64,000 nucleotides of DNA, taken from NCBI RefSeq assembly GCF_024298825.1, contig NZ_CP101153.1, positions 3,906,001 to 3,970,000 of the forward strand, given 5' to 3'. A model generated the notes under the pieces. It did no database searches. It saw nothing but the letters and a program-made list of their open reading frames with translations, and was not told the DNA's origin. Both the position numbers and the translations under genes were made by a program. How positions within the stretch are numbered: the first letter of the stretch is position 1; each line of letters starts with the position of its first letter. Positions 1-10,921 of this stretch are shown piece after piece. Source of the DNA: Haloglomus salinum. Its GTDB lineage: Archaea; Halobacteriota; Halobacteria; Halobacteriales; Haloarculaceae.

Positions 1-40
1 GCTGGCTGTCGTCCTCCGTCTCTGTTTCGTCTGTGCTCAT
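1..40 (-). CDS. Partial CDS, acidic N-terminus running off the left edge
   Basis: An ATG on the minus strand at 38-40 opens a frame that stays open to the window edge and encodes MSTDETETEDDSQ. The strongly acidic start is typical of haloarchaeal proteins. Only 13 residues are visible, so no function can be given. A 7-bp inverted repeat lies just upstream at 52-78. Confidence 0.35.
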   Translation of the reverse strand, partial: MSTDETETEDDSQ

Positions 41-51
41 GGGTGCATCCC

Positions 52-78
52 GTGGCCTCGTATGTCTTCGTAGGCCAC
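52..78. promoter_or_regulatory. Inverted repeat upstream of the left-edge gene
   Basis: GTGGCCT at 52-58 and AGGCCAC at 72-78 form a perfect 7-bp inverted repeat with a 13-base spacer. A second overlapping symmetry, CGTATG / CATACG, spans 59-82. It lies 12-42 bases upstream of the start at 40, where a haloarchaeal operator or leader hairpin could sit. The regulatory role is inference. Confidence 0.3.
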
Positions 79-136
79 ATACGCAGTGAGACGGATAGCA
101 CGGATAAATCTGTCGTGAGAAGTGTTGGCACGAAAC

Positions 137-158
137 GTATTAACCGCTAATACGATTT
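137..158. repeat. 22-bp repeat with palindromic core, copy 1
   Basis: The core GTATTAACCGCTAATAC (137-153) followed by GATTT recurs at 2403-2424 with 20 of 22 bases identical and in the same orientation. The core is a near-palindrome of two 8-bp arms around one central base. The two copies bracket the winged-helix/methyltransferase gene pair, so they may be recombination sites of a small cassette or two operators. Confidence 0.7.
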
Positions 159-176
159 ACCGAGCACAGGAGTTTG

Positions 177-473
177 CTAATCCTGGAGGAGAGCCCGTAA
201 CTCAGCCGTTACGTCTTGTATCTGATCGTGAATCGTTAGGAGCCGCTCCGCTCCGCGTTCGGTTAGCATGTAGCAATTCCGGTGGCCGTCAACGGACCGT
301 TTCGAGAGATAACCGGATTCTACCAGGGTCTCCATAGCCTGATAGGCGGTCTGATACTCCACGTCTGTCTCATACACCTCACTGTGTAGGTCCTGTATCG
401 CAGATACATCGGGCTCGTACTTCTGTGCGACGAGACACAGCATCCGAAGTCTCGTGTTTATCAGGTCGGTCAT
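177..473 (-). CDS. Small winged-helix (PadR/MarR-like) protein
   Basis: 98 residues from the ATG at 473. The pattern is a helical N-terminus, a middle segment that looks like a recognition helix (VEYQTAYQAMETLVESGYL), then a beta-wing with basic residues (SKRSVDGHRNCYMLTERG) and a C-terminal amphipathic helix suited to dimerisation. This is the general form of archaeal PadR/MarR-type winged-helix regulators, though no specific family is certain. Its ATG overlaps the stop of the methyltransferase gene by four bases (ATGA), so the two are translationally coupled. It probably regulates, or acts together with, that methyltransferase. A longer frame starting at 500 exists, but the overlap favours 473. 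Confidence 0.7.
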   Translation of the reverse strand: MTDLINTRLRMLCLVAQKYEPDVSAIQDLHSEVYETDVEYQTAYQAMETLVESGYLSKRSVDGHRNCYMLTERGAERLLTIHDQIQDVTAELRALLQD

Positions 474-2209
474 GCTGGCTTCTGGAGGAAGACCACCCAC
501 TCTCGCTCGATCGCTCCGTTGCCGTGGTCACGGTCTTGGAACAGGTCCCGCCTCGTAATCCCATCCCAGGCGAACCCGCCGAAGTGATAACCATCCTTGA
601 CCCCGATATCGTCGGGCTGCCCCGAGAACTGCCCGATGTTCTGGGCGATGTCTGCCACGAAGCGGTGGCTCTCGATTCGCCGCCCCCCGATCGTGTTCTC
701 ACCGATGACGAAGTAGAAGCAGGCGCCAGGCTTCAGATGACGGTACACCTGGGTCAACGTCTTCAGCATATCCTCGGCGAAGAACTTGTAGGTCACATAC
801 GCTCGCTGCGTGGCCTCACTGAGACTCCCCGTGTGGATTGCTTTGATGTCCTCATCCAGCTCCGGTAGCGAGGTCTCCTGATAGGCCTCTCGCGAACCCT
901 TCCAGTCGTTTCGGAGGTACTTCGGTAGCTCGTCGACGAACCCCCGGATGTTCGTCGCGTTCGATCCGATGATCGATCGTCGGAGCGTATCCGCGTCGAT
1001 GGCTGTAGTTTCCTCTAAGAGGTCCTGTATCCAGAACAACCGGAGCTTCGTGCCCCGGTAGTAGTTCATCGCGTTAATGTACGGTGGGGAGGTGATAGCC
1101 AGATCAACCTCCTCGTAGTACTCGGGAAAGTCAAAGGTTCGTGCGTCTCCCAGCCGAACATCTGTCTCGGCCTGGTGTGCCGGGTTTTCGTCCAGCGGTA
1201 CCCAGTTGTCGGAGTAGCTGTAAATCGTGGCGTTCTCACTGCCATCCACGGTCACGGACTGCTCACTTCCTCCGGGGGCGTTGGTCCGGTAGACCTCATT
1301 CCACAAGTCGACCAGCTTGGCCCGGGACTCTTCCAGTTCGACTTGGTAGACGCGAACTGGATCCGGTGGGTGCTCGCCAGTCTCGATCTTTTCCCGCATC
1401 TTCTTCGACCGGTGGGCCTTGGAGACGTCGGGGTCAGCGTTCGACACAGCGAACACCGTGTTCGCGACCATCAGCACCAGCCACCGGCCGACTCGGGCTT
1501 CAACCTCCGCCTCGCCAATCGACCTAATCATCATTTGCTCCCGAGGCTCAACTGATGCTGTGAGATCTGGCGGGTCGTCCAGAAACTCCGAGACCACCTT
1601 TCGAATCGTCGTCAGCCCCTCTATGGCGGAATCCTCGAACCAGTGGGACTTTGACGTTCTGTCCAGGAACTCCACATCGTGGTCCTCGTAGCGCTGTCTG
1701 GGCGTTGACTGGAGCGCTTCGTTGATGTATGTCTCCGTGTTCTCCAGCACTGTGTACGGAATCGGTGACATCGAGACGCTGCTAACCAGTTTTGACAGCG
1801 GATTGATCTCGACCCCGAGGTAGTCACGACCAGCGATTTTCGCTTCAAGGCCCGTAGTTCCACTCCCCGAGAACGGGTCCAGTACAAGCGGTCGGTCCCC
1901 CTCCGTCGTGGTTTTAGTAGAATATTTATTAATCAGATATCGGGGAATGTGGGGGATGAACGTGGCTGGGTGCTTGTGGATCGTGTGGGTGAGCGGAGTA
2001 TCGTTCCATGACACCGAGGGAACACGTTCGCGAAAGTTCAGTTCCGGATACGATTCCCCGTCCTCTGGCGGTTCCGGAGATGGAGGGCGCTCAGCGCCTG
2101 AGAGAGCTGGATTCGCCTCATGATTCAGCGAGATTCTTCCAGTTGCATCATCACCTACCTCAGATTTGTGAGACTGAGAGGCGTCAGAGGTAGAATCACG
2201 ACTGCCCAT
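470..2209 (-). CDS. DNA amino-methyltransferase (N4-cytosine or N6-adenine)
   Basis: 579 residues. The first about 60 residues are polar and low in complexity. A motif X-like stretch follows (IHKHPATFIPHIPRYLI, around residues 77-93). SAM-binding motif I is at about 111-121 (DPFSGSGTTGLEA) with EIN at 134-136, and the catalytic TSPPY motif is at 373-377. The order X-I-(variable region 150-340)-IV resembles the alpha arrangement of DNA amino-methyltransferases. The variable region is the likely target-recognition domain. The ATG at 2209 is chosen because a TATA box sits 26-33 bp upstream, which predicts a nearly leaderless transcript. No restriction endonuclease is visible beside it, so within this window it is an orphan methyltransferase. 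It is followed by a coupled winged-helix gene, and the pair is bracketed by 22-bp repeats. Confidence 0.88.
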   Translation of the reverse strand: MGSRDSTSDASQSHKSEVGDDATGRISLNHEANPALSGAERPPSPEPPEDGESYPELNFRERVPSVSWNDTPLTHTIHKHPATFIPHIPRYLINKYSTKTTTEGDRPLVLDPFSGSGTTGLEAKIAGRDYLGVEINPLSKLVSSVSMSPIPYTVLENTETYINEALQSTPRQRYEDHDVEFLDRTSKSHWFEDSAIEGLTTIRKVVSEFLDDPPDLTASVEPREQMMIRSIGEAEVEARVGRWLVLMVANTVFAVSNADPDVSKAHRSKKMREKIETGEHPPDPVRVYQVELEESRAKLVDLWNEVYRTNAPGGSEQSVTVDGSENATIYSYSDNWVPLDENPAHQAETDVRLGDARTFDFPEYYEEVDLAITSPPYINAMNYYRGTKLRLFWIQDLLEETTAIDADTLRRSIIGSNATNIRGFVDELPKYLRNDWKGSREAYQETSLPELDEDIKAIHTGSLSEATQRAYVTYKFFAEDMLKTLTQVYRHLKPGACFYFVIGENTIGGRRIESHRFVADIAQNIGQFSGQPDDIGVKDGYHFGGFAWDGITRRDLFQDRDHGNGAIEREWVVFLQKPA

Positions 2210-2234
2210 GTTACCGCCCTCTTTCCGGGTAGGT

Positions 2235-2242
2235 GATATAAA
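2235..2242 (-). promoter_or_regulatory. TATA box of the methyltransferase gene
   Basis: TTTATATC on the minus strand is centred about 29 bases upstream of the ATG at 2209. This is the normal spacing for a leaderless haloarchaeal mRNA, and it supports that start codon. Confidence 0.6.
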
Positions 2243-2402
2243 GGTGGCTACACCGGAATTGCATGCAGCGGGACGGGTGGGAGTCCACGTCACGAACGGA
2301 GGAACCCTTCCCATGGGCCTGCCCCACGCCTACTAATCGTACCATCTTTGTGACAACAATCGTCCGGGTGGGATGTGAGTCTTTCCCAGCCAAAGGTGGA
2401 CG

Positions 2403-2424
2403 GTATTAACGGTTAATACGATTT
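2403..2424. repeat. 22-bp repeat with palindromic core, copy 2
   Basis: The core GTATTAACGGTTAATAC at 2403-2419 is a perfect 8-bp inverted repeat around one base, followed by GATTT. It matches the copy at 137-158 in the same orientation with two mismatches. It lies about 195 bases upstream of the methyltransferase start. Confidence 0.7.
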
Positions 2425-2509
2425 CTCTAACTGGTTAGCGTTTAAGAGACGAGCCACTATCGGACGTTGCTGCCTCGGAGAAGACGAGCGAGGGCGGATC
2501 CCTCGGTCG

Positions 2510-2647
2510 CCCGCCTCGCATGTGTGCAGGTAAACGTAAAGCCGGGAGCATCATAGAAATACCGGCATATGAACATGACAGATAACCAAATTGACTAAGT
2601 GGTGGCGGAAGTACGTATTGGCACGCTCGGCCCGCCTCGCATGTGTG
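2510..2647. repeat. Pair of exact 17-bp direct repeats upstream of a small gene
   Basis: CCCGCCTCGCATGTGTG occurs at 2510-2526 and again at 2631-2647, both on the plus strand. The second copy lies 30-46 bases upstream of the ATG at 2677, where an archaeal operator could act. No TATA box is obvious there. It may be regulatory or the trace of a small duplication. Confidence 0.5.
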
Positions 2648-2676
2648 TATGTGAGGTGTGGCGGGGCGGACAGAAC

Positions 2677-2919
2677 ATGTCCGGAAGCGAACACACCGTT
2701 GGATCCGTCGACGAGGCACTCGCCAACCTCCAGGAGATGGAGCGCGGCGAGGAGCACTCGCACGATCTCCAGCTCGGCCACGTCGACAAGCAGATCGTCC
2801 ACGCCGGAACGGACCACGTCTCCCGGTCGGGGGACGGCGTGATCCGGAAGGAGATCGTCTGGACGTGTTCGAAGTGTGGGGAGACAATCAAGAGAATCGA
2901 TATTCGCAACAACGGATGA
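2677..2919 (+). CDS. Small CxxC-containing protein of unknown function
   Basis: 80 residues, acidic. The C-terminal part carries one CxxC (WTCSKCGETIKRI) that could make half a zinc site or mediate dimerisation through zinc. I chose the ATG at 2677 over the upstream ATG at 2599 because the extra residues there are basic and unlike the rest. It stands alone in an accessory region, preceded by two 17-bp direct repeats. I do not recognise the family. The acidic composition and clean stop suggest a real gene. Confidence 0.55.
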   Translation: MSGSEHTVGSVDEALANLQEMERGEEHSHDLQLGHVDKQIVHAGTDHVSRSGDGVIRKEIVWTCSKCGETIKRIDIRNNG

Positions 2920-3497
2920 CGGGGAGTACCGCATCGAACAGTAACAATCGAGCCAAGGCGGAGGTCGGACGGCCGAACCCAGATGGAATGCGCCTGAAAA
3001 TCTATGGCGCGGACATACGGGGGACGGCGTCGAAGGCGCAACGGGACAACAAGTTGGCCCCTGCGCTGACCGCGAGAGCGGGAAGGTCCATACAAACGAA
3101 CGCCTCCATGGAGGGAGAGGCCGCTCACTGCGATGCTTTCTCCTGCGCCGGTCCCTGCGGGGACTGGATGTCTACCAAGTCCGAATGTGGCAGCGAAGGG
3201 CTCTGTGCAGCGGCGAGACCTCCTCGGACCCTCGTCGTGAAGGCCAGTAAGGCCGCACTCACAACCTGGACGCCAGTTACGTCTCCCGGACACCTGAAGG
3301 CAGATTAGTTACCTGAACCCACACGCCTCTGAGAGTGGTTCTATTACCACTCTCTTGTTGAGTGGTACATGTCGATTGAGTCTCGGTTCTCGGGACTTCC
3401 GTCCACCACCTACGGATTCCTCCTCAATCGAGTGTGGCGGTAGGGGTGGTCCGGCTGCCTCCTCCCTTGAAAACCAGATATCTCGGCAGCGGCCCCG
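2920..3497. other. Gene-free stretch
   Basis: No frame with haloarchaeal acidic composition is visible on either strand. The only structure I see is the perfect hairpin at 3331-3354. It could be decayed accessory DNA between the small CxxC gene and the convergent membrane-protein gene. Confidence 0.4.
3331..3354. repeat. Perfect 9-bp stem hairpin
   Basis: GAGAGTGGT (3331-3339) and ACCACTCTC (3346-3354) form a perfect 9-bp stem with a 6-base loop TCTATT, followed by TTGTTG. It lies between convergent genes ending at 2919 and 3498, closer to the latter. It could be a bidirectional terminator or an insertion-element end. The archaeal terminator reading is weak because there is no long T run. 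Confidence 0.4.
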
Positions 3498-3914
3498 TTA
3501 ATTACCAGGGAGTGGGATACTACCGCGGTCGAAGCTGAGCCGGTCCGCACGCTGGACGGAATACCACGCTATTCCGCCGAAGAGCACCAGGAGGAACACA
3601 CCGTAGAATGATCTCGGCCCGATAATCAGATCCAATCCTGTCATTCCCGCCTGGATCGCGTACACGACCGTCATCAAATCCCACGCCCAGTCTTTCCCCA
3701 GGAACACGGAAACTGCAGTTGCCACCAAGACCAGTCCGACGAGTAGCATAAGGACGACACCGACGAGCGCCCAGATTCCCTCGGATTGGGACATGAACGG
3801 AAGCCCGAATAGCGTCACAATCACGGTAACGCCTCCCAAGAATACGAAGAAGATTCCATGAAGCAGAGCAAAGACGCCAACCAGGGTGCCGGTCCGGCCA
3901 GTATTGTCTGACAT
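3498..3914 (-). CDS. Four-helix membrane protein of unknown function
   Basis: 138 residues with four clear hydrophobic segments at about residues 10-35, 45-70, 80-100 and 105-125, and a short basic/polar C-terminus. It resembles small haloarchaeal DUF membrane proteins, but I do not assign a family. It is on the same strand as, and 84 bases downstream of, the aGPT-PPlase-like gene, so it may be co-transcribed with that operon. There is no sequence evidence that it takes part in base modification. Confidence 0.75.
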   Translation of the reverse strand: MSDNTGRTGTLVGVFALLHGIFFVFLGGVTVIVTLFGLPFMSQSEGIWALVGVVLMLLVGLVLVATAVSVFLGKDWAWDLMTVVYAIQAGMTGLDLIIGPRSFYGVFLLVLFGGIAWYSVQRADRLSFDRGSIPLPGN

Positions 3915-3998
3915 TTCATAGACCAGTCGACTCAGTTGACATATAGCTTCGCCCGAATAACCTCAAGAGAGAAATATCCGGTCTACAGTTAGTAGCAG

Positions 3999-4877
3999 TT
4001 ATAGAAATTCAGTAAGCGGCTTCTGCTCGTACTTCTTCGGATCGTAAGTCCGCCCGGCCCCGGCCTCATGCCGGATTCGGTGGTAGGTCCCGTACTCACA
4101 GAGGGCGTGTTCGACGGAACGGCAGGTGAGCGGTTTCTGCTTCTTTCCGTCCCACTGGAAGAGCTCGTACGGTGTGTTATCGTATAGGCGGTCCTGCTCC
4201 TGGACCACCCACCGGATCTGGTCTTCCGTCTCCTGGTCGTTGTTGACATCCCAGATACGGTCCGCGCCGATGGCGGCCCCTGGCCCGACGTTCACGAAGT
4301 CGTTCTCGGAGAACGGCAGATGCCGGTAGTTGAGATCCGTGACGAGTTCGTACGCGAGGAACTCGCCAACGCCGGGGATCCCAGTTAGGAGCTTCCAGGC
4401 CTGCTCCATCGAATCAGCATCGAAGACGGCATCAACCCAGAAGTCGAGTCGGGAGAGAACATCGTTCTCAACCACGTCGAGGACATTTCCCACGTGGTCG
4501 TTGTAGCCACGTTGGGGCGGATTGATACGATAGGCCGCGCCGAAGACCGTGTCGAGTTCACGGAGCCGTTGGCGGGCGGCAGCCACGTTGAAGGCTTCCG
4601 GGCCGATGTAGCCGCCCATCGCATCGAAGCTCTCGACACGGTTGAGGAAGCGGTAGACGACGATATTGAGGAAGACGCCAGCCTTGTTGTCACGGGAGAG
4701 GATCTCCTCGAGCGCGTACTGGGTCCCCCGGTCGAGCCGGCGGTAGACGTGGCAGAAGTGGAAATCCCGGAGCACCGCGTCAGCGGTCCAGGGCGGATTG
4801 TGGCCGAGCAGCTCCTTCCGGCGGAAGATCTCCTGGCGCTCGTACATCCACCAGAGGAACTCATCAAGGGAGCCCAC
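3999..4877 (-). CDS. aGPT-PPlase / 5-hmdU DNA kinase helical-domain protein (putative DNA base hypermodification)
   Basis: About 292 residues from a GTG at 4877. The sequence shows the pattern of the alpha-glutamyl/putrescinyl-thymine pyrophosphorylase / HMUDK helical family: YERQEIFRRK (12-21), PPWTADAVLRDFHFCHVYRR (28-47), LDRGTQ, a V-YRFLNR segment (74-80), a helix-hairpin-helix LTGIPGVGEFLAYELVTDL (164-182), and FSENDFVNVGPGAAIGADRI (189-208). In phages such proteins modify pyrophosphorylated 5-hydroxymethyl-uracil in DNA, replacing the pyrophosphate with amino acids or polyamines. It overlaps the stop of the TS-like gene by 14 bases, so the two form a translationally coupled operon. A GTG at 4886 is an alternative start, and a still longer frame to 5030 runs over the TS gene and is unlikely. 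Family membership is confident. Substrate and product are unknown, and no P-loop kinase gene is seen nearby. Confidence 0.85.
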   Translation of the reverse strand: MGSLDEFLWWMYERQEIFRRKELLGHNPPWTADAVLRDFHFCHVYRRLDRGTQYALEEILSRDNKAGVFLNIVVYRFLNRVESFDAMGGYIGPEAFNVAAARQRLRELDTVFGAAYRINPPQRGYNDHVGNVLDVVENDVLSRLDFWVDAVFDADSMEQAWKLLTGIPGVGEFLAYELVTDLNYRHLPFSENDFVNVGPGAAIGADRIWDVNNDQETEDQIRWVVQEQDRLYDNTPYELFQWDGKKQKPLTCRSVEHALCEYGTYHRIRHEAGAGRTYDPKKYEQKPLTEFL

Positions 4878-5565
4878 TGGCGACACCCCCAAGTTCCCGT
4901 GAGACCCGTTCAGCCCGTCCACTATCCTCGAAGACGACGTTGTTGCACCGTACCTCCAACCGGCCCACCTCGTAGTCGGTCCGGGCGGCTGTTTGGGCAA
5001 GCAGCGACGCCAACGAGAGCAAGTTCCCATACGCCTTCAGGTCCCACCACTGCGACCGGAAGACAGCGTGCAGGTCGAGGTACTCCTCGTGGGGACGGAA
5101 CTGGAGTTGCGTCAGGCAGACGATTCCTGTGGCGCGGGGCCGTGGCTTCTCAGCGGCCTTCAGGTCGGGTTCCCGGTAGACCTGGGCAACGAGTGCGTTC
5201 GTACTCGACCCATGGTAGCCGAGTTCCAGCCGCCGCTCGATACGCGACAACTGGTGCCTAGCGTCCAGTCGATCGGCATAGCGGCCCTCGTAGAGTACAT
5301 AGAATCGTCCGGCGACCCAGTCCTCACCAGTAGAGCCGCCGCTCTTCTGATCGGTCTTCCCGAGGTCCAGATCCCGGAATGTGGTCCACTCGTCACCGAA
5401 GTTGACGCGTTCCGTCCAGGCGACGGGTGATGTCGGTTCACGGACACTGCCAGCGTCTGCAGGCTCTTCGATTATCACGGTGCATCCCCCTTTCCCAGAG
5501 TTGATCAGACGCCCGAGTGCGGTGCTGTAGGCATCACCGACCGAGCGTCCGGTATGGCACGGCAT
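4864..5565 (-). CDS. Thymidylate-synthase-like protein (dUMP/dCMP hydroxymethylase-like)
   Basis: 233 residues. The N-terminus (SVGDAYSTALGRLINSGKGG) matches the first helix of TS-like proteins. The core holds the likely catalytic cysteine Cys150 in GIVCLTQLQF, the phosphate-binding RS at 170-171, and an asparagine in AYGNLLSLASLL (Asn181) at the position that contacts the pyrimidine. It is much shorter and more divergent than ThyA and sits directly upstream of the aGPT-PPlase-like gene. In phage hypermodification systems a TS-like enzyme makes 5-hydroxymethyl-dUMP, so the same role is inferred here. It could instead be a redundant thymidylate or dCMP-modifying enzyme. The ATG at 5565 is the first in frame. 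Confidence 0.82.
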   Translation of the reverse strand: MPCHTGRSVGDAYSTALGRLINSGKGGCTVIIEEPADAGSVREPTSPVAWTERVNFGDEWTTFRDLDLGKTDQKSGGSTGEDWVAGRFYVLYEGRYADRLDARHQLSRIERRLELGYHGSSTNALVAQVYREPDLKAAEKPRPRATGIVCLTQLQFRPHEEYLDLHAVFRSQWWDLKAYGNLLSLASLLAQTAARTDYEVGRLEVRCNNVVFEDSGRAERVSRELGGVASGLP

Positions 5566-5764
5566 ATGGACAACTCGGTTTGCTGACAGTTATTGGTATC
5601 GAACGTTTAACCCTGCTTTCGGAAGCTGAGGGCTGTGGAACGGGCGGAACTAAGGCATCGGACACACACAGCCAACATACGCACGCGACCGACCAATCCA
5701 GGATCCCACAAACACGGCGGGGTATGAACAGAATTATGTCCGGGAGGGCGCTTCGCTTCGATGA

Positions 5765-5839
5765 GGGGCCTTAGCTCAGCTCGGACAGAGTGCGTGGCTT
5801 CGGACCACGTTGCCGGGGGTTCAAATCCCTCAGGCCTCG
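5765..5839 (+). tRNA. tRNA-Arg (anticodon TCG)
   Basis: The acceptor stem GGGGCCT/AGGCCTC closes with one G-T pair, and T8-A9 follows. The D arm is GCTC/GAGT. The anticodon stem CGTGG/CCACG encloses the loop CTTCGGA, giving anticodon TCG (reads CGA). The T arm is GGGGG-TTCAAAT-CCCTC, and the discriminator base is G. There is no encoded CCA and no intron. It lies at the edge of an accessory region, as expected for an integration hot spot. Confidence 0.93.
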
Positions 5840-5877
5840 TGAACCCGCCGAGCGATAGCGAGGCGTGGTGACCATCG

Positions 5878-5897
5878 CTGAGGATTTGACCCCTGAG
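5878..5897 (-). repeat. Inverted imperfect copy of the tRNA-Arg T arm
   Basis: The 20 bases CTGAGGATTTGACCCCTGAG resemble the reverse complement of the tRNA-Arg T arm at about 5813-5832, with two single-base deletions. It sits 39 bases after the tRNA. A similar arrangement follows the tRNA-Lys at 54.9 kb. It may be a remnant of past integrase activity. Confidence 0.45.
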
Positions 5898-6251
5898 AGA
5901 CGAGCGGCGCGAGCGAAGTGACTGGGCCTACGGGCGCGCCGCCGCCCGGCTCGTCGCGCTGGACAAACGCCGGGCGGAGTCCTCGACGTTCCAGGCATGG
6001 CTCGACGAGTACGCCGTCGACGCGCTCCAGCGGAAAGACGAGTGGCGTGTCCAGGTTCGTATCGAGACCACTCTCGGCGACCTGAAGTCGGCCGCTCACC
6101 CCAGCATGGGGCGGGTGCTGCGCGATGGGTACTCCGCCTGGTTCGTGATGGCCACGACGCTGCCGCGTTCCATGAGATGCTCGTCGAGTGGTCGAATCGT
6201 GGGGAATCCGAGACCTCGAAAGCTGGCGTCGTCCTCGGTTCGACGGAGTGA
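5893..6251 (+). pseudogene. Frameshifted remnant of an unidentified gene next to tRNA-Arg
   Basis: A frame opening after a stop near 5890 gives a coherent, Asp/Glu-bearing helical protein segment (about 5920-6150, including WLDEYAVDALQRKDEWRV). It then loses sense near 6150. The neighbouring frame resumes with a helical segment (AAFHEMLVEWSNRGE) to a stop at 6249-6251. A single frameshift would join the two. I do not recognise the family. Its place beside a tRNA suggests a decayed element gene. Confidence 0.4.
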
Positions 6252-7045
6252 CTCGGTACTGGCAACGCTCGGCAGCGATGGCAGTCTTTAAATACAGGTA
6301 GACTTCTTACCGCCACGTGGCGCTGGTTCAGCCCTCCCGTCATAGTGCACGATGTCCGTGGACGGCTGGGTCGGCGTCTTCTGTTCCCGCAGGACTGGGA
6401 TGCCCCCTGGAGAGTGTGCCCAAACCGGCGGAAAACCACACCCCACACCGTTCAGCCCTACCCACAGCGCGCGCTGAACCTGGGCACGTATCGAGGGGCA
6501 GCGGCAGGTGATACGAGGTACGTCGAGTACCCCACCGACGGTCATATCGCGGGGGCCCCGGGAGTTCTCCGGGAGGCAGCTCCACGGAAGGCGGCCAACG
6601 TAGCTGCCAGCGCAGCTGACCACGGCGAAATCCAGGGCGACGGGAACAACGAGTACAAACTTGGCAACGCCGATGAGGACCGGTGGGACGTGACGTTCAC
6701 CAGGGAGCCGTTCGGCTGCAAGATGTGGTATCCCACGACCGGGGACGACAGCCAGGACGATGTCGCCGAGAAGATACGTAACGCCCCCACTCACTTCGAG
6801 GGATGGTCAGTACCGTCCAGTCAGCAAGAGGGAACCGCCCGAATCATTGTCCAGACACAGCGGCGAGTCGCGCCGGGCGAGCTGACAGCGAAGCGAGCTC
6901 ATCGTGCCGGTTCGGTGGCCGACCTGGCGTAACGACCCAGTGAAGAGATGCCTGTATGACCGCGTGAATCTTTTAGTAGCGACCACCGGCCTCTGCCACC
7001 GGGCTAGCACGGCGAGTGATTCTCCCCTCACTCCCCCCACTCGCC
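6252..7045. other. Gene-poor stretch without a convincing gene
   Basis: Two overlapping frames on opposite strands cover 6288-6932 (168 and 195 codons). Neither has recognisable motifs, and their composition does not favour one strand. A TATA-like TTTAAATA lies at about 6287-6294 on the plus strand, about 30 bases before a GTG at 6317, but the resulting frame does not look like a protein. The stretch is best read as decayed accessory DNA. Confidence 0.4.
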
Positions 7046-7336
7046 AGTGCCAGCCCTATTGTCCACCAGCCCGCCGACTCACCGCAGGTCACTCTCACGC
7101 TCTCGACGCCCGCCGGGGGAACTGCCCGGATCGACATCCAGAATCCCGGGTCGACTCCGGATGTGGAACGGAACTCGATTCAGCAGGGGTATGAAACACA
7201 GCTGACCCACTCGAGCGGACTGGGACTCTGGCTTATCCAGTGGCTTGTCGAGAACAGCTACGGGAGACTCAGCTTCCCGAAAACGACCGACGACGAGGCC
7301 ACGCTTCGAATCGAGTTGACCCGTCTACCCTCCTGA
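7046..7336 (+). pseudogene. C-terminal remnant of a histidine kinase ATPase domain
   Basis: The frame carries the tail of a haloarchaeal HATPase_c domain. It shows an N-box-like remnant (VHQPADSPQV), a degenerate G1 region (DIQNPGSTPD, where family members have DDGPGIP), and an intact G2 region (HSSGLGLWLIQWLVENSYG) with a terminal beta strand before a normal stop. The sensor, dimerisation and most of the ATP-binding parts are absent upstream, so it cannot be a working kinase. Confidence 0.7.
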
Positions 7337-7624
7337 TTGGTCCATCGGTTCGTGATGAGCAACACCCGGAAACGCTCGACACTCTCGATAGACCCTCCCG
7401 GACGCCAGGGTGTTGAACGAGGGGAATCGCAGGTCCATTGAGACACCGGTCGCAGCTACTGAGTGGCCTCGGCTGTCGAGACCCGGTTCCAGCTCAGCCA
7501 GCCCTCGGTCGGATTCGGTTCTCGACCCCACGTTCGTTCGCTTGACACGCTGGAGGTTCGGTGGAGGACCCGGAGATTCGTGGTCGCGGTGGGGTCTCGC
7601 GTGCCACGAAACTTCGCGGATGCG

Positions 7625-8749
7625 TTAGTTCGCCGCGCAGTTGTTGGGTCCAAGTTCGAGCGCCTCGATGTCGCCACCGGGCTGTTCTTTGCCCCAGTTG
7701 ATCTGCTTGATCTCGTTGTAGTTCGCAGGCTCCTCGGCGAGGCTCTCGACGATGGTCTCGACGAACGTCTCCTCGTCGCCGCCTTCGACGTAGCTCAGGA
7801 GTTCGTTCGTCGTCTCTGCCTGAAGCTCGCCGAGTTCCGTCGCGAGCGGTCGAACCTCTTCGTCACTGAAGTGGCCAGGGAGAACGACGGTCTCGTCTGA
7901 GAGACCGGTTAGCGTTTCGAGACTGTCGAACAGCTGGCCGGATGCCGCTCGAACGGCCTCTTCGGAACCGTCCTCGAGGTCGGGCCGACCGACGCTCCGC
8001 AGGAACAGCGTGTCTCCAGAGAGGAGCGCATCGTCGAACCGGAACGAGACGCTCCCGGGCGTGTGGCCGGGGGTGTGTAGTACATCGAGCGCTCTGTCGC
8101 CGACGGAGATGGTGTCCCCATCGACGATTTCGGTGACCTCGTCGAGTTCGCCCGCATCCTCGGGGTGGAGATAGTAGGGCACGTCGAGTTCACCGGCGAG
8201 ACGACGGGCTCCGGAGACGTGGTCGGCGTGTGCGTGCGTGTCAGCGACCCCGACGATGTCGAAACCGTGGTCATCGGCGACGTTCAGGTACTCATCGATG
8301 TACTGAGTCGGATCGACGACGATCGCCTCGTTGCCATCGTATGCGAGATAGGACACACAGCCGGTCCCGGGGCGGACGATCTGGATGATGCCGTCGGCGC
8401 TGGAGACCTCGTATTCCCGGTGGACACGTCCCCAGGCGTTCATGCCGTCGGGAATCGATTTCGCGTCGAACCCGTGCTCGCGGAGGAAGTCAGCAGCACG
8501 GGCAGACGTGACGCCCGCGACGCAGACGATGGCTATCTCTTCGTCTTCGGGAAGCTCGTCGAGACGATCTTCCAGCCCGGAATAGTCGTACTTGAGGAGC
8601 TCGTCGTAGATCGGGACGTTCGTGCTACCCGGAATCTGCCACTCCTCGTACTCCTCCTCGTTTCGGACGTCGAGGATGAATATGTCCTCGGCGTCGTCTT
8701 CAGCGATGCGGCGTGCAACTTCGGACGCCTCGATATCAGTATTGCTCAT
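7625..8749 (-). CDS. Rhodanese and metallo-beta-lactamase fusion (persulfide dioxygenase-like)
   Basis: 374 residues from the ATG at 8749. An N-terminal rhodanese domain (about residues 5-105) carries the active-loop cysteine in IVCVAGVTSARA. A metallo-beta-lactamase domain (about 115-320) follows, with the metal motif THAHADHVSG, a further histidine in HTPGHTPG, LLSGDTLF, and a late histidine in LPGHFSDEE. A C-terminal tail of about 50 residues ends with the polar segment QINWGKEQ. Related bacterial and archaeal proteins act on persulfides (ETHE1 type) or handle sulfur transfer in the cytosol. The gene is monocistronic, with a TATA box at 8777-8784 that supports this start; a TTG at 8758 is an alternative. 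Confidence 0.88.
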   Translation of the reverse strand: MSNTDIEASEVARRIAEDDAEDIFILDVRNEEEYEEWQIPGSTNVPIYDELLKYDYSGLEDRLDELPEDEEIAIVCVAGVTSARAADFLREHGFDAKSIPDGMNAWGRVHREYEVSSADGIIQIVRPGTGCVSYLAYDGNEAIVVDPTQYIDEYLNVADDHGFDIVGVADTHAHADHVSGARRLAGELDVPYYLHPEDAGELDEVTEIVDGDTISVGDRALDVLHTPGHTPGSVSFRFDDALLSGDTLFLRSVGRPDLEDGSEEAVRAASGQLFDSLETLTGLSDETVVLPGHFSDEEVRPLATELGELQAETTNELLSYVEGGDEETFVETIVESLAEEPANYNEIKQINWGKEQPGGDIEALELGPNNCAAN

Positions 8750-8776
8750 TTCAACCAATATGACACGGCCATATGT

Positions 8777-8784
8777 GTATAAAC
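8777..8784 (-). promoter_or_regulatory. TATA box of the rhodanese-MBL gene
   Basis: GTTTATAC on the minus strand is centred about 31 bases upstream of the ATG at 8749, predicting a transcript with a leader of only a few bases. Confidence 0.55.
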
Positions 8785-9019
8785 GTGTTGGGTTCGGGTG
8801 AGTGGAAGAATCTATTCGACTTGCGATAACGACGAGCTAGTGTCCTACAGTGTGGTTATCCGCCTGAAACGGAACGGTTGTGGCTGATCTGCGGGGCACC
8901 CCAATTATTTCATCACTCACTCACAACTGTACGGAGATTGGCCATCGCACATTCGACACTGTCAAAGCGACGAAACTGGAGGATGGGCGACACGCTGTAG
9001 TTCTCTTTCCCGAGAGGAA

Positions 9020-9292
9020 CGTCCCTGGGAACTTGCTCCGACGGAACCCGAGATAGTCGCAGCTCTGGGTAGTGGAACTGGCTTCTACACAGATTCCGTT
9101 GTACCTCACGTTGGTCTGGTCTCTGCAGTCGATATCCAGAGAGCCATGCACGATTACCACCGTGACAAAGGTGTTCCAGAGAATGCGGAATTCGTCACGT
9201 CTGGCGTCGATAGTCTTCCCTCTGTGTCGGGTGACCTGGACAAGGCCGCCTCGACGATGAGGTATCACGAGCCTCCGGAAATATCGGTGTGA
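9020..9292 (+). pseudogene. Remnant of a class I SAM-dependent methyltransferase
   Basis: In frame to the stop at 9290-9292 the sequence reads like a Methyltransf_11 protein. Motif I is ALGSGTGFYTDSVVPHVG, the next strand ends VSAVDIQRAMHDYHRDKGVP, then NAEFVTSGVDSLP and a degenerate STMRYHEPP. The N-terminal helix and the C-terminal half are missing, and no start codon with a promoter is evident. It is a broken copy, unrelated to the DNA methyltransferase at 470-2209. Confidence 0.6.
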
Positions 9293-9556
9293 GCGCTCTC
9301 ATTATCGGTGCCCGTTCCTGCACGACGGGAGTGAATTCAGCATAGCCGGGCTGAGAGAAGAACCGGATGTAACAGCAGTGTACATCAGTGACCGAACCCG
9401 GGTCGCGTTTCCCTCTGTGTCTCGAATATCGGCAAACATCTGCCCGCAAGAACGCGCCCGATATTGTTCATAAATAGCAATACAAAAGAGTGTACTGAGT
9501 AGCTGTGACCACCAATCACAATCGCTTTACAATCTAGAATGGAACGATAGAGCGAC

Positions 9557-10132
9557 ATGGGAGCCGGAGATGCCGCTGACAGGGAGTTCCGCAAAAAGAC
9601 GTTCTCTCCGCAGACATTAGTGGCTGGAACTGCCCGATTCGCACAAAACATCCCGCGGCTGATTCGTGCCAGGCGTGCCGACAGAGTCAGCGACCAGTTC
9701 GCCGAGAAAATCATGCTGGCGGTCACGGCGGTCAACAAGTGCCAGTACTGCACCCGATATCACACTGACCTCGCACGGGAGACAGGTGTCGACCGAGAGA
9801 CGATCACCAGCATCCTCGAGAGCGATGTCGACTCGGCTGTCGACGACGACGAGCGTCCTGCGCTGCTGTTCGCTCAGCGATACGCCGAGACGAACGAGAA
9901 TCCCGGTCGAGAAGCGGTGGCAGAGTTGCAGCGGACCTACGGAGAAGAGACGGCCGGCGACATTCAGGCGTTCATCCGGGCGATATACTTCGGCAATCTG
10001 CTGGGGAACACCTATGACGGCGTTCGGTTCGCAACCGCTCGTCGCGTGGAGGCTGCACGGGACGCTACTCAGCAGCTGTCTTCCCGCATTGGTTATGGCA
10101 TCGACGGTCTCCGAGAGCGTTGCCCGATATGA
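9557..10132 (+). CDS. AhpD-like / carboxymuconolactone decarboxylase family protein
   Basis: 191 residues. The all-helical fold carries the redox motif CQYCTRYHTD around residues 62-71 (CxxC followed by His), which is the catalytic site of AhpD-type alkylhydroperoxidases. A second helical half (IQAFIRAIYFGNLLGNTYDG) is conserved in the family. It probably reduces peroxides or acts as a thiol-disulfide protein in the cytosol. The ATG at 9557 follows an AT-rich stretch about 30 bases upstream. It stands alone among decayed genes. Confidence 0.85.
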   Translation: MGAGDAADREFRKKTFSPQTLVAGTARFAQNIPRLIRARRADRVSDQFAEKIMLAVTAVNKCQYCTRYHTDLARETGVDRETITSILESDVDSAVDDDERPALLFAQRYAETNENPGREAVAELQRTYGEETAGDIQAFIRAIYFGNLLGNTYDGVRFATARRVEAARDATQQLSSRIGYGIDGLRERCPI

Positions 10133-10657
10133 CTGCGTGTACCAGCGTCTTGAACTTCGGAGTCGAAGGGCTGTATCGTTGGTCTTTGGGTAATACTCGC
10201 AGTAACGTCTGAACTGTGGGGCGGATTCTCCTAGCTATTATCCAGATTTCCGACAAACATGGCAACTGTCCCGGGCTCTATGAATCGAGCCGCTTTCGGT
10301 AGAGAAACAGCGGTGGCGGCAATCGCCCCCGGACCGACCCGGACTGTGTATGCAGCACGGCTGCCGATACTTATCAATAGACCGTCATCAAAGTCCCGAT
10401 TACCTCGCTGATGCGCGCTTCGGTCGCTTCCTTCAGAGACGCCCGATGGCGGAGTAGTCGCTCCAGCCGCCGGCGGACATCACCGTCCGCACGTCGCGGC
10501 CCGCTTCGACGACAGCGCGCTGTCGCGCGACCTCCATCGGACCGCGGCGTGTCGCTCGGGGGCAGGACCTCTTCGGCGATTACCCGAACACAACCGGTCA
10601 GCGGATAGCAGGAGACCTCGCTTCCTCGCAGGTCGTTCCGGCGCCAGCCCGGGCCTG
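10133..10657. other. Gene-free stretch
   Basis: No frame in this stretch has coding character. A short minus-strand frame at about 10437-10541 encodes a segment vaguely like the tail of a tyrosine recombinase (GRDVRTVMSAGGWSDYS), but it is too short to name. The stretch marks the right border of the low-density accessory region. Confidence 0.35.
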
Positions 10658-10921
10658 CTACTCGAACACGCGGCTCTCCTCCTCCAGTAGCTCGATGCCG
10701 CGGGCGACCTCGCTCGCCTGGTCCGGGTCGAGGGCGATCTCGACCTCACTTCCGTCCTCGTCCTCGAAGGCCATTTTGACCCGGCGGTCGCCGTACTCCC
10801 GGACATCGATACCTTCGATGTCGTAGAGCTTCGCGGTGGCACTTCGGTTCGAGGCCCCCGCGTGCTTGATGGCGCCGTCTTTCAGTTCGAACATGAAGTC
10901 CTCGAGGTCCAGCAGCAGCAT
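10658..10921 (-). CDS. Small acidic conserved haloarchaeal protein
   Basis: 87 residues from the ATG at 10921. It has alternating strands and acidic loops (FMFELKDGAIKHAG, AKLYDIEGIDVREYGDRRVK, MAFEDEDGSEVEIALD) and a C-terminal helix. The beta-rich layout resembles a small PH-like or SH3-like fold. No catalytic motif is visible. The function is unknown. It is on the same strand as the bactofilin-like gene upstream. Confidence 0.7.
   Translation of the reverse strand: MLLLDLEDFMFELKDGAIKHAGASNRSATAKLYDIEGIDVREYGDRRVKMAFEDEDGSEVEIALDPDQASEVARGIELLEEESRVFE

Follow-up and report, generated by a model that had tools for sequence, protein, structure and literature searches.

A thymidylate synthase-like and HMUDK_hel gene pair in a tRNA-Arg integrative element of Haloglomus salinum, a probable minimal form of a nucleotide-modifying conflict module

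Two overlapping genes on the minus strand of the Haloglomus salinum genome encode a protein like thymidylate synthase (TS) and a protein of the HMUDK_hel family. They lie within a stretch of 64,000 nucleotides, which was analysed as a whole and is called the window here. In phages, enzymes of these two kinds take part in thymine hypermodification, and an earlier note, made from the sequence alone, read the pair in this way, leaving it between a cellular base-modification system and the cargo of an integrated virus. HMUDK_hel and TS-like genes have been known from cellular conflict clusters for years, and most of these clusters consist of six to ten genes. The question is what only two of them do in a haloarchaeon, and what brought them there.

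The two proteins of the pair

The HMUDK_hel gene (3999..4877, minus strand) starts with GTG and encodes a protein of 292 aa (P0001), which is a stand-alone helical domain. It was placed inside the family by PF18723 (E 3.3e-57, 194 bits against a cut-off of 25) over positions 4-278 of the 281 in the profile, and it also matched PHROG 2396 (E 3e-48). All 11 columns that are invariant in an alignment of 61 rows are kept, namely Ala115, Gly171, Phe173, Asp181, Tyr184, Gly198-Pro-Gly, Gly204 and Cys260-Glu261. The upstream gene of the pair (4864..5565, minus strand) starts with ATG and encodes the TS-like protein of 233 aa (P0002). Both frames are intact and share an overlap of 14 bases, and the coupling that had been proposed is correct in coordinates and in frame. 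PADLOC had no model for either protein.

The TS-like protein was harder to assign. As a single sequence it found no match in Pfam and weak TS matches elsewhere (TIGR03283, E 8e-5; phage TS family, E 0.11). A profile made from 40 of its relatives reached solved TS structures with E 3e-4 and with the catalytic regions aligned, and the haloarchaeal orthologue at locus L186 scored above the PF00303 cut-off (26.6 against 24.3 bits). Together with the fold of the model, these results make it firmly a divergent member of the TS superfamily. So the full family pattern claimed before is complete for HMUDK_hel, while the TS protein is without several TS hallmarks.

The two window proteins were modelled with AlphaFold from alignments with their relatives. 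The HMUDK_hel model had pLDDT 91 and was helical throughout. Its best solved match was PUGT (8z2n), the 5-phosphomethyl-dU glycinyltransferase of phage PaMx11, with VIA Z 11.8 over 216 residues and rmsd 3.6; the next were 8-oxoguanine DNA glycosylases with Z about 10 (MjOgg, Z 10.4). Helical folds inflate Z, and the best E of Foldseek against PDB was 0.08, so the likeness to PUGT is a lead at the level of fold and not of sequence. The top match in BFVD was the 5-hmdU DNA kinase of Bacillus phage SP10 (TMq 0.85), a protein of 637 aa of which only the helical part aligns with the window protein. The P-loop motif GxxxxGK[ST] was sought in P0001 and is absent, and there is no gene for a P-loop DNA kinase nearby, as had been noticed from the sequence. 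Because of this and of the fold nearest to PUGT and the glycosylases, the Pfam label "kinase, helical domain" is misleading for this protein. In the model it looks like a transferase and not a kinase, with a predicted HhH-GPD glycosylase or PUGT-like fold, and might be a transferase or a base-binding part. A search of PDB sequences with the HMUDK_hel profile gave only aquaporin matches, which were discarded as chance.

The TS-like model had pLDDT 72 overall and above 90 across most of residues 150-210. Its closest solved folds were the CMP hydroxymethylase MilA (Z 17.1) and the dCMP hydroxylase AfhB (9iqu and 9iqc, Z 16.9 and 16.4), and thymidylate synthases came below them with VIA Z 14-15. 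AfhB is also of similar length, whereas the identity to MilA and AfhB is 14-17 %, the partner gene is another one, and the window protein has Asn at the position that binds the pyrimidine. Cytosine-type enzymes of the TS fold have Asp there.

The catalytic residues recognised before are all present (Cys150, Arg170-Ser171 and Asn181). Among 43 aligned TS-like relatives, Cys150 and Asn181 are invariant (43/43), as is Tyr96, and Arg99 is nearly so. The surroundings of these residues are different. The position of E. coli Arg166 holds Arg in only 24 of the 43 relatives (Arg170 in the window protein), that of Asp169 has mostly aromatic residues (Trp173), and that of Gly173 has Lys or Arg in all 43 (Lys177). 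His207 and Tyr209 of E. coli, which contact the 3'-OH of the sugar, correspond to Val211 and Glu213, ungapped at +30 and +32 from Asn181, and His is not among the common residues of the His207 column in the family. The pair of Arg residues that binds phosphate across the dimer was not seen in three haloarchaeal TS-like proteins, which have Ser-Thr-Asn or Cys-Thr-Asn in an alignment that is gapped there. The protein can thus plausibly catalyse a reaction on a uracil-like ring, but its recognition of sugar, phosphate and cofactor has changed.

It is mainly for these altered residues that we do not call the protein a thymidylate synthase or a phage dUMP hydroxymethylase. In the tree, the canonical and phage-type TS rows formed one clade with support 100 and the window protein fell outside it. 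By sequence it belongs to a cell-encoded TS-like group distinct from the phage-type TS genes, and a reading as the phage enzyme that acts on dUMP is not supported.

The integrative element and the integration site

The pair is cargo of a 32.7-kb integrative element in tRNA-Arg. A 101-bp repeat at 5717..5817 (attR) is identical in 100 of 101 positions to a left copy beyond the window (genome coordinates C1 3878998-3879098), the two copies are 32.7 kb apart, and a tyrosine integrase gene lies just inside the left one, attL. The integration site is the tRNA-Arg(TCG) gene at 5765..5839 (plus strand), the tRNA seen beside the pair before; its copy at the element's right end is intact, and attR includes the 5' part of it. 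The whole element covers about C1 3879099-3911816, of which the right-hand part is about 1-5816 of the window, or 1-5716 without attR. The pair is found just within attR, some 150 bases from the right end. The genome of a congener (G712) is collinear up to the tRNA-Arg and is without the element segment.

The element also contains genes for a serine recombinase, a GHKL-type ATPase and an N6/N4 DNA methyltransferase (PF01555; 470..2314, minus strand), and a long operon whose membrane and secreted proteins have no match in Pfam. The methyltransferase gene is in the same cargo zone as the pair and shows no sign of acting with it. On the other side of the tRNA-Arg, window positions 5840-10660 encode a rhodanese/beta-lactamase-fold protein and others; this right flank is absent from the congener, which has 1.6 kb instead, and is a second variable stretch at the integration site.

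Of the virus cargo that had been suggested, the part on an integrated element stood, with attR, the repeats and the integrase, but the virus itself found no support. Ten proteins of the element were searched and gave the integrase only and no structural PHROG, in libraries where haloviruses are poorly represented, so the evidence supports no more than the name "integrative element". A profile of the haloarchaeal TS-like proteins had no match in viral contigs, and a halovirus source is therefore unsupported. Elsewhere in the H. salinum genome no second PF18723 protein was found, and a MazG_C candidate (E 3e-4) was under the cut-off and was discarded.

Relatives in bacteria and haloarchaea

A scan of genome contigs with the single protein revealed no relative, and an alignment-based scan revealed more than 540. 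The best 80 of these, with plasmid records added, gave 92 cellular HMUDK_hel loci, and neighbour clusters built from antisense reading frames were excluded. A TS-like gene of the same group is present at 47 of the 92 loci in 12 named phyla, a number that is not a census since the loci were picked by similarity to the window protein, and it overlaps the HMUDK_hel gene in 13. The chance expectation for this is near zero, because no more than 3 of the 146 genomes of the family gave a match to the haloarchaeal TS profile. As the pair also recurs in two other haloarchaea, the pairing is not chance.

The usual order in bacteria is acyl carrier protein (ACP), HTH, ImmA/IrrE protease, TS-like, HMUDK_hel, and MazG with MazG_C, with AcpS near. 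A second form has HTH, ImmA, a papain-like (C1) peptidase, TS-like, a dCTP-deaminase-like gene and HMUDK_hel. Other loci combine HMUDK_hel with a ThsB-type TIR gene and Nmad2, and at one locus (L060:8803-10920, plus strand) HMUDK_hel, MazG and MazG_C are fused in one protein of 705 aa. The clusters with a TS-like gene are on chromosomes and plasmids of many bacterial phyla, and the TS/HMUDK_hel pair is their core; the two adjacent genes are what the window has in common with the first form. For this reason the cellular side of the earlier alternative fits better than the virus cargo. A scan of 14 kb around the pair found none of the HTH, ImmA/IrrE, carrier or MazG_C genes. A gene for MazG_C or dTMP kinase often adjoins the relatives and the window has neither, so the earlier remark is still fair that the chemistry has to be another one or else be completed by a gene at a distance.

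HMUDK_hel is rare in haloarchaea (9 of the 392 genomes of the order). The pair is also present on a plasmid of Natrinema thermotolerans (L003) and in genome G690 (L186), and in both a small TFIIB-repeat protein, which is missing in the window, is encoded between the two genes (L003:9381-9935 and L186:8106-8687, both plus strand). It is possibly a regulator in place of the bacterial HTH/ImmA switch. The HMUDK_hel proteins of the three haloarchaea form one clade with support 99, and so do their TS-like proteins together with a lone relative of genome G705 (support 99). Since the haloarchaeal copies of each gene group in one clade, the two genes appear to have moved together. The lone copy (L201:9064-9786, minus strand) is without HMUDK_hel and adjoins a 1016-aa AAA_5 protein of McrB-like size, whose downstream partner is of McrC-like size.

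Other haloarchaea show fuller and poorer forms. A Haloarcula marina plasmid (L006) carries a more complete cluster of bacterial type with a dTMP kinase, a plasmid of H. turkmenica has a TS fragment only, and in G693, another member of the family, HMUDK_hel is a pseudogene with an internal TGA (C1 557182-557655; loci L182 and L187). In the H. marina cluster the ImmA/IrrE protease is in fusion with an inhibitor of the chagasin type (PF09394; L006:4830-5813, minus strand), a type directed at papain-like peptidases, and the adjoining gene encodes a papain-like (C1) peptidase (L006:4207-4830, minus strand), which suggests that the peptidase is restrained by the neighbouring fusion. A separate haloarchaeal cassette consists of HMUDK_hel, a zinc ribbon, a 191-aa protein, SLATT (DUF4231) and a ThsB-type TIR; it was found at L005, L015, L017, L018, L033 and L191 and is conserved over several families.

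Proposed function and alternative readings

With a probability of about 0.55, we regard the pair as the minimal version, in haloarchaea, of a nucleotide-modifying conflict module that is encoded by cells and moves horizontally, carried here as cargo of the element. Conflict with viruses or other elements is indicated by the position at the end of a mobile element, by the patchy distribution, and by the neighbours of the relatives, which include protease-controlled HTH switches, TIR, SLATT, Nmad2 and MazG. In the proposed mechanism, the TS-like enzyme would hold a uracil moiety by Asn181, form the usual covalent adduct between Cys and C6, and then add a substituent at C5. The HMUDK_hel protein, as a glycosylase-fold transferase like phage PUGT, would bind the modified pyrimidine and join or exchange a group on the C5 arm. 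The product would be an unusual thymidine, either a free nucleotide that is a poison or a signal, or a base in invading DNA, and might counter viruses or rival elements. All of the chemistry, the sequence of the steps, the substrate and the role against viruses are inferred. A more specific and rather doubtful form of this proposal is an archaeal immune module of two proteins. Its TS-fold enzyme would work independently of folate and, together with the glycosylase-fold transferase, would make a new modified thymidine (free nucleotide or base) against viruses.

Conflict systems with HMUDK_hel, MazG_C, Nmad2, TIR and SLATT were predicted by Burroughs et al. (2015, Nucleic Acids Res. 43:10633), as that work is cited in PMC13092281. 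The window shares HMUDK_hel with these nucleotide-centric systems, and about half of the loci found have the TS-like gene of the same group. It differs from them in having two genes only, without adjoining HTH, ImmA, ACP, AcpS, MazG_C, TIR or Nmad2, and its two proteins are on haloarchaeal branches of their own. Independent support, and the first experimental link of such domains to defence, is from the validated DefensePredictor systems (PMC13092281). In E. coli, protection from phage was obtained there with a TS domain and with a 5-hmdU kinase domain, while for aGPT-Pplase and MazG domains a defensive role was predicted. These E. coli systems share the names of their domains with the pair, and two DNA probes for their homologues had no match in E. 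coli genomes.

Modification of thymine in the DNA of the host or of the element itself, as self-protection against restriction in the manner of phages with hypermodified thymidine, is an unlikely reading. The phage systems (the SP10 5-hmdU DNA kinase, PUGT of PaMx11 and the dUMP hydroxymethylase of phage TS type) have an HMUDK_hel domain and a TS-superfamily partner in common with the pair, phage HMUDK_hel relatives adjoin TS-type genes, the nearest fold is that of PUGT, which acts on DNA, and the element carries a DNA methyltransferase. However, the TS gene is from another clade with altered surroundings of the active site, a P-loop kinase domain is missing from the pair and a polymerase gene from its vicinity, no phage replication or structural genes were matched around it, and the cellular relatives neighbour enzymes of the nucleotide pool and conflict effectors rather than replication genes. 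What remains of the hypermodification proposed earlier is thus the two families, their coupling and the catalytic residues; the missing P-loop, the transferase-like fold and a TS that is not of phage type speak against its phage-style chemistry.

Less likely again is that the TS-like protein works without folate like the flavin-dependent AfhB, giving an oxidised or altered pyrimidine as second messenger or poison. AfhB and MilA tie as top structural matches (Z 16.4-17.1), and the residues of ThyA that face folate, Asp169 and Gly173, are replaced throughout the family. But enzymes of AfhB type use dCMP while all 43 members of this family have the uracil-type Asn.

The bacterial clusters contain regulators, ACP, MazG_C and effector genes that the window lacks, so the pair may be a remnant or may work differently. 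That it is decayed or incidental cargo, as a nonfunctional rest of a larger module or for the upkeep of the element instead of defence, seems improbable. The missing companions, the lack of the TFIIB-like gene of its two sister loci, the pseudogene of G693 and the fragment of H. turkmenica would agree with decay, but in the window both frames are intact and overlap, and neither the 11 invariant columns of HMUDK_hel nor the two catalytic residues of the TS-like protein have been lost. As maker of dTMP for the cell the pair was rejected, since the genome has ThyX and is without ThyA (no PF00303 match), and it is therefore accessory and not housekeeping.

Systems of this kind had been predicted, and in part validated, in other work. 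The new points are the minimal archaeal form of two genes, its location in a tRNA-Arg element, the sister form containing TFIIB, and the change of the TS active site across the family. With the haloarchaeal form the set is reduced to the minimum in which both conserved enzymes are still present. A TS active site rebuilt throughout a family around the invariant Cys and Asn predicts a substrate or cofactor unlike those of ordinary thymidylate synthases. If the pair is active, the question of what these enzymes make becomes a test with two proteins, and archaea would use thymidine modification within immunity.
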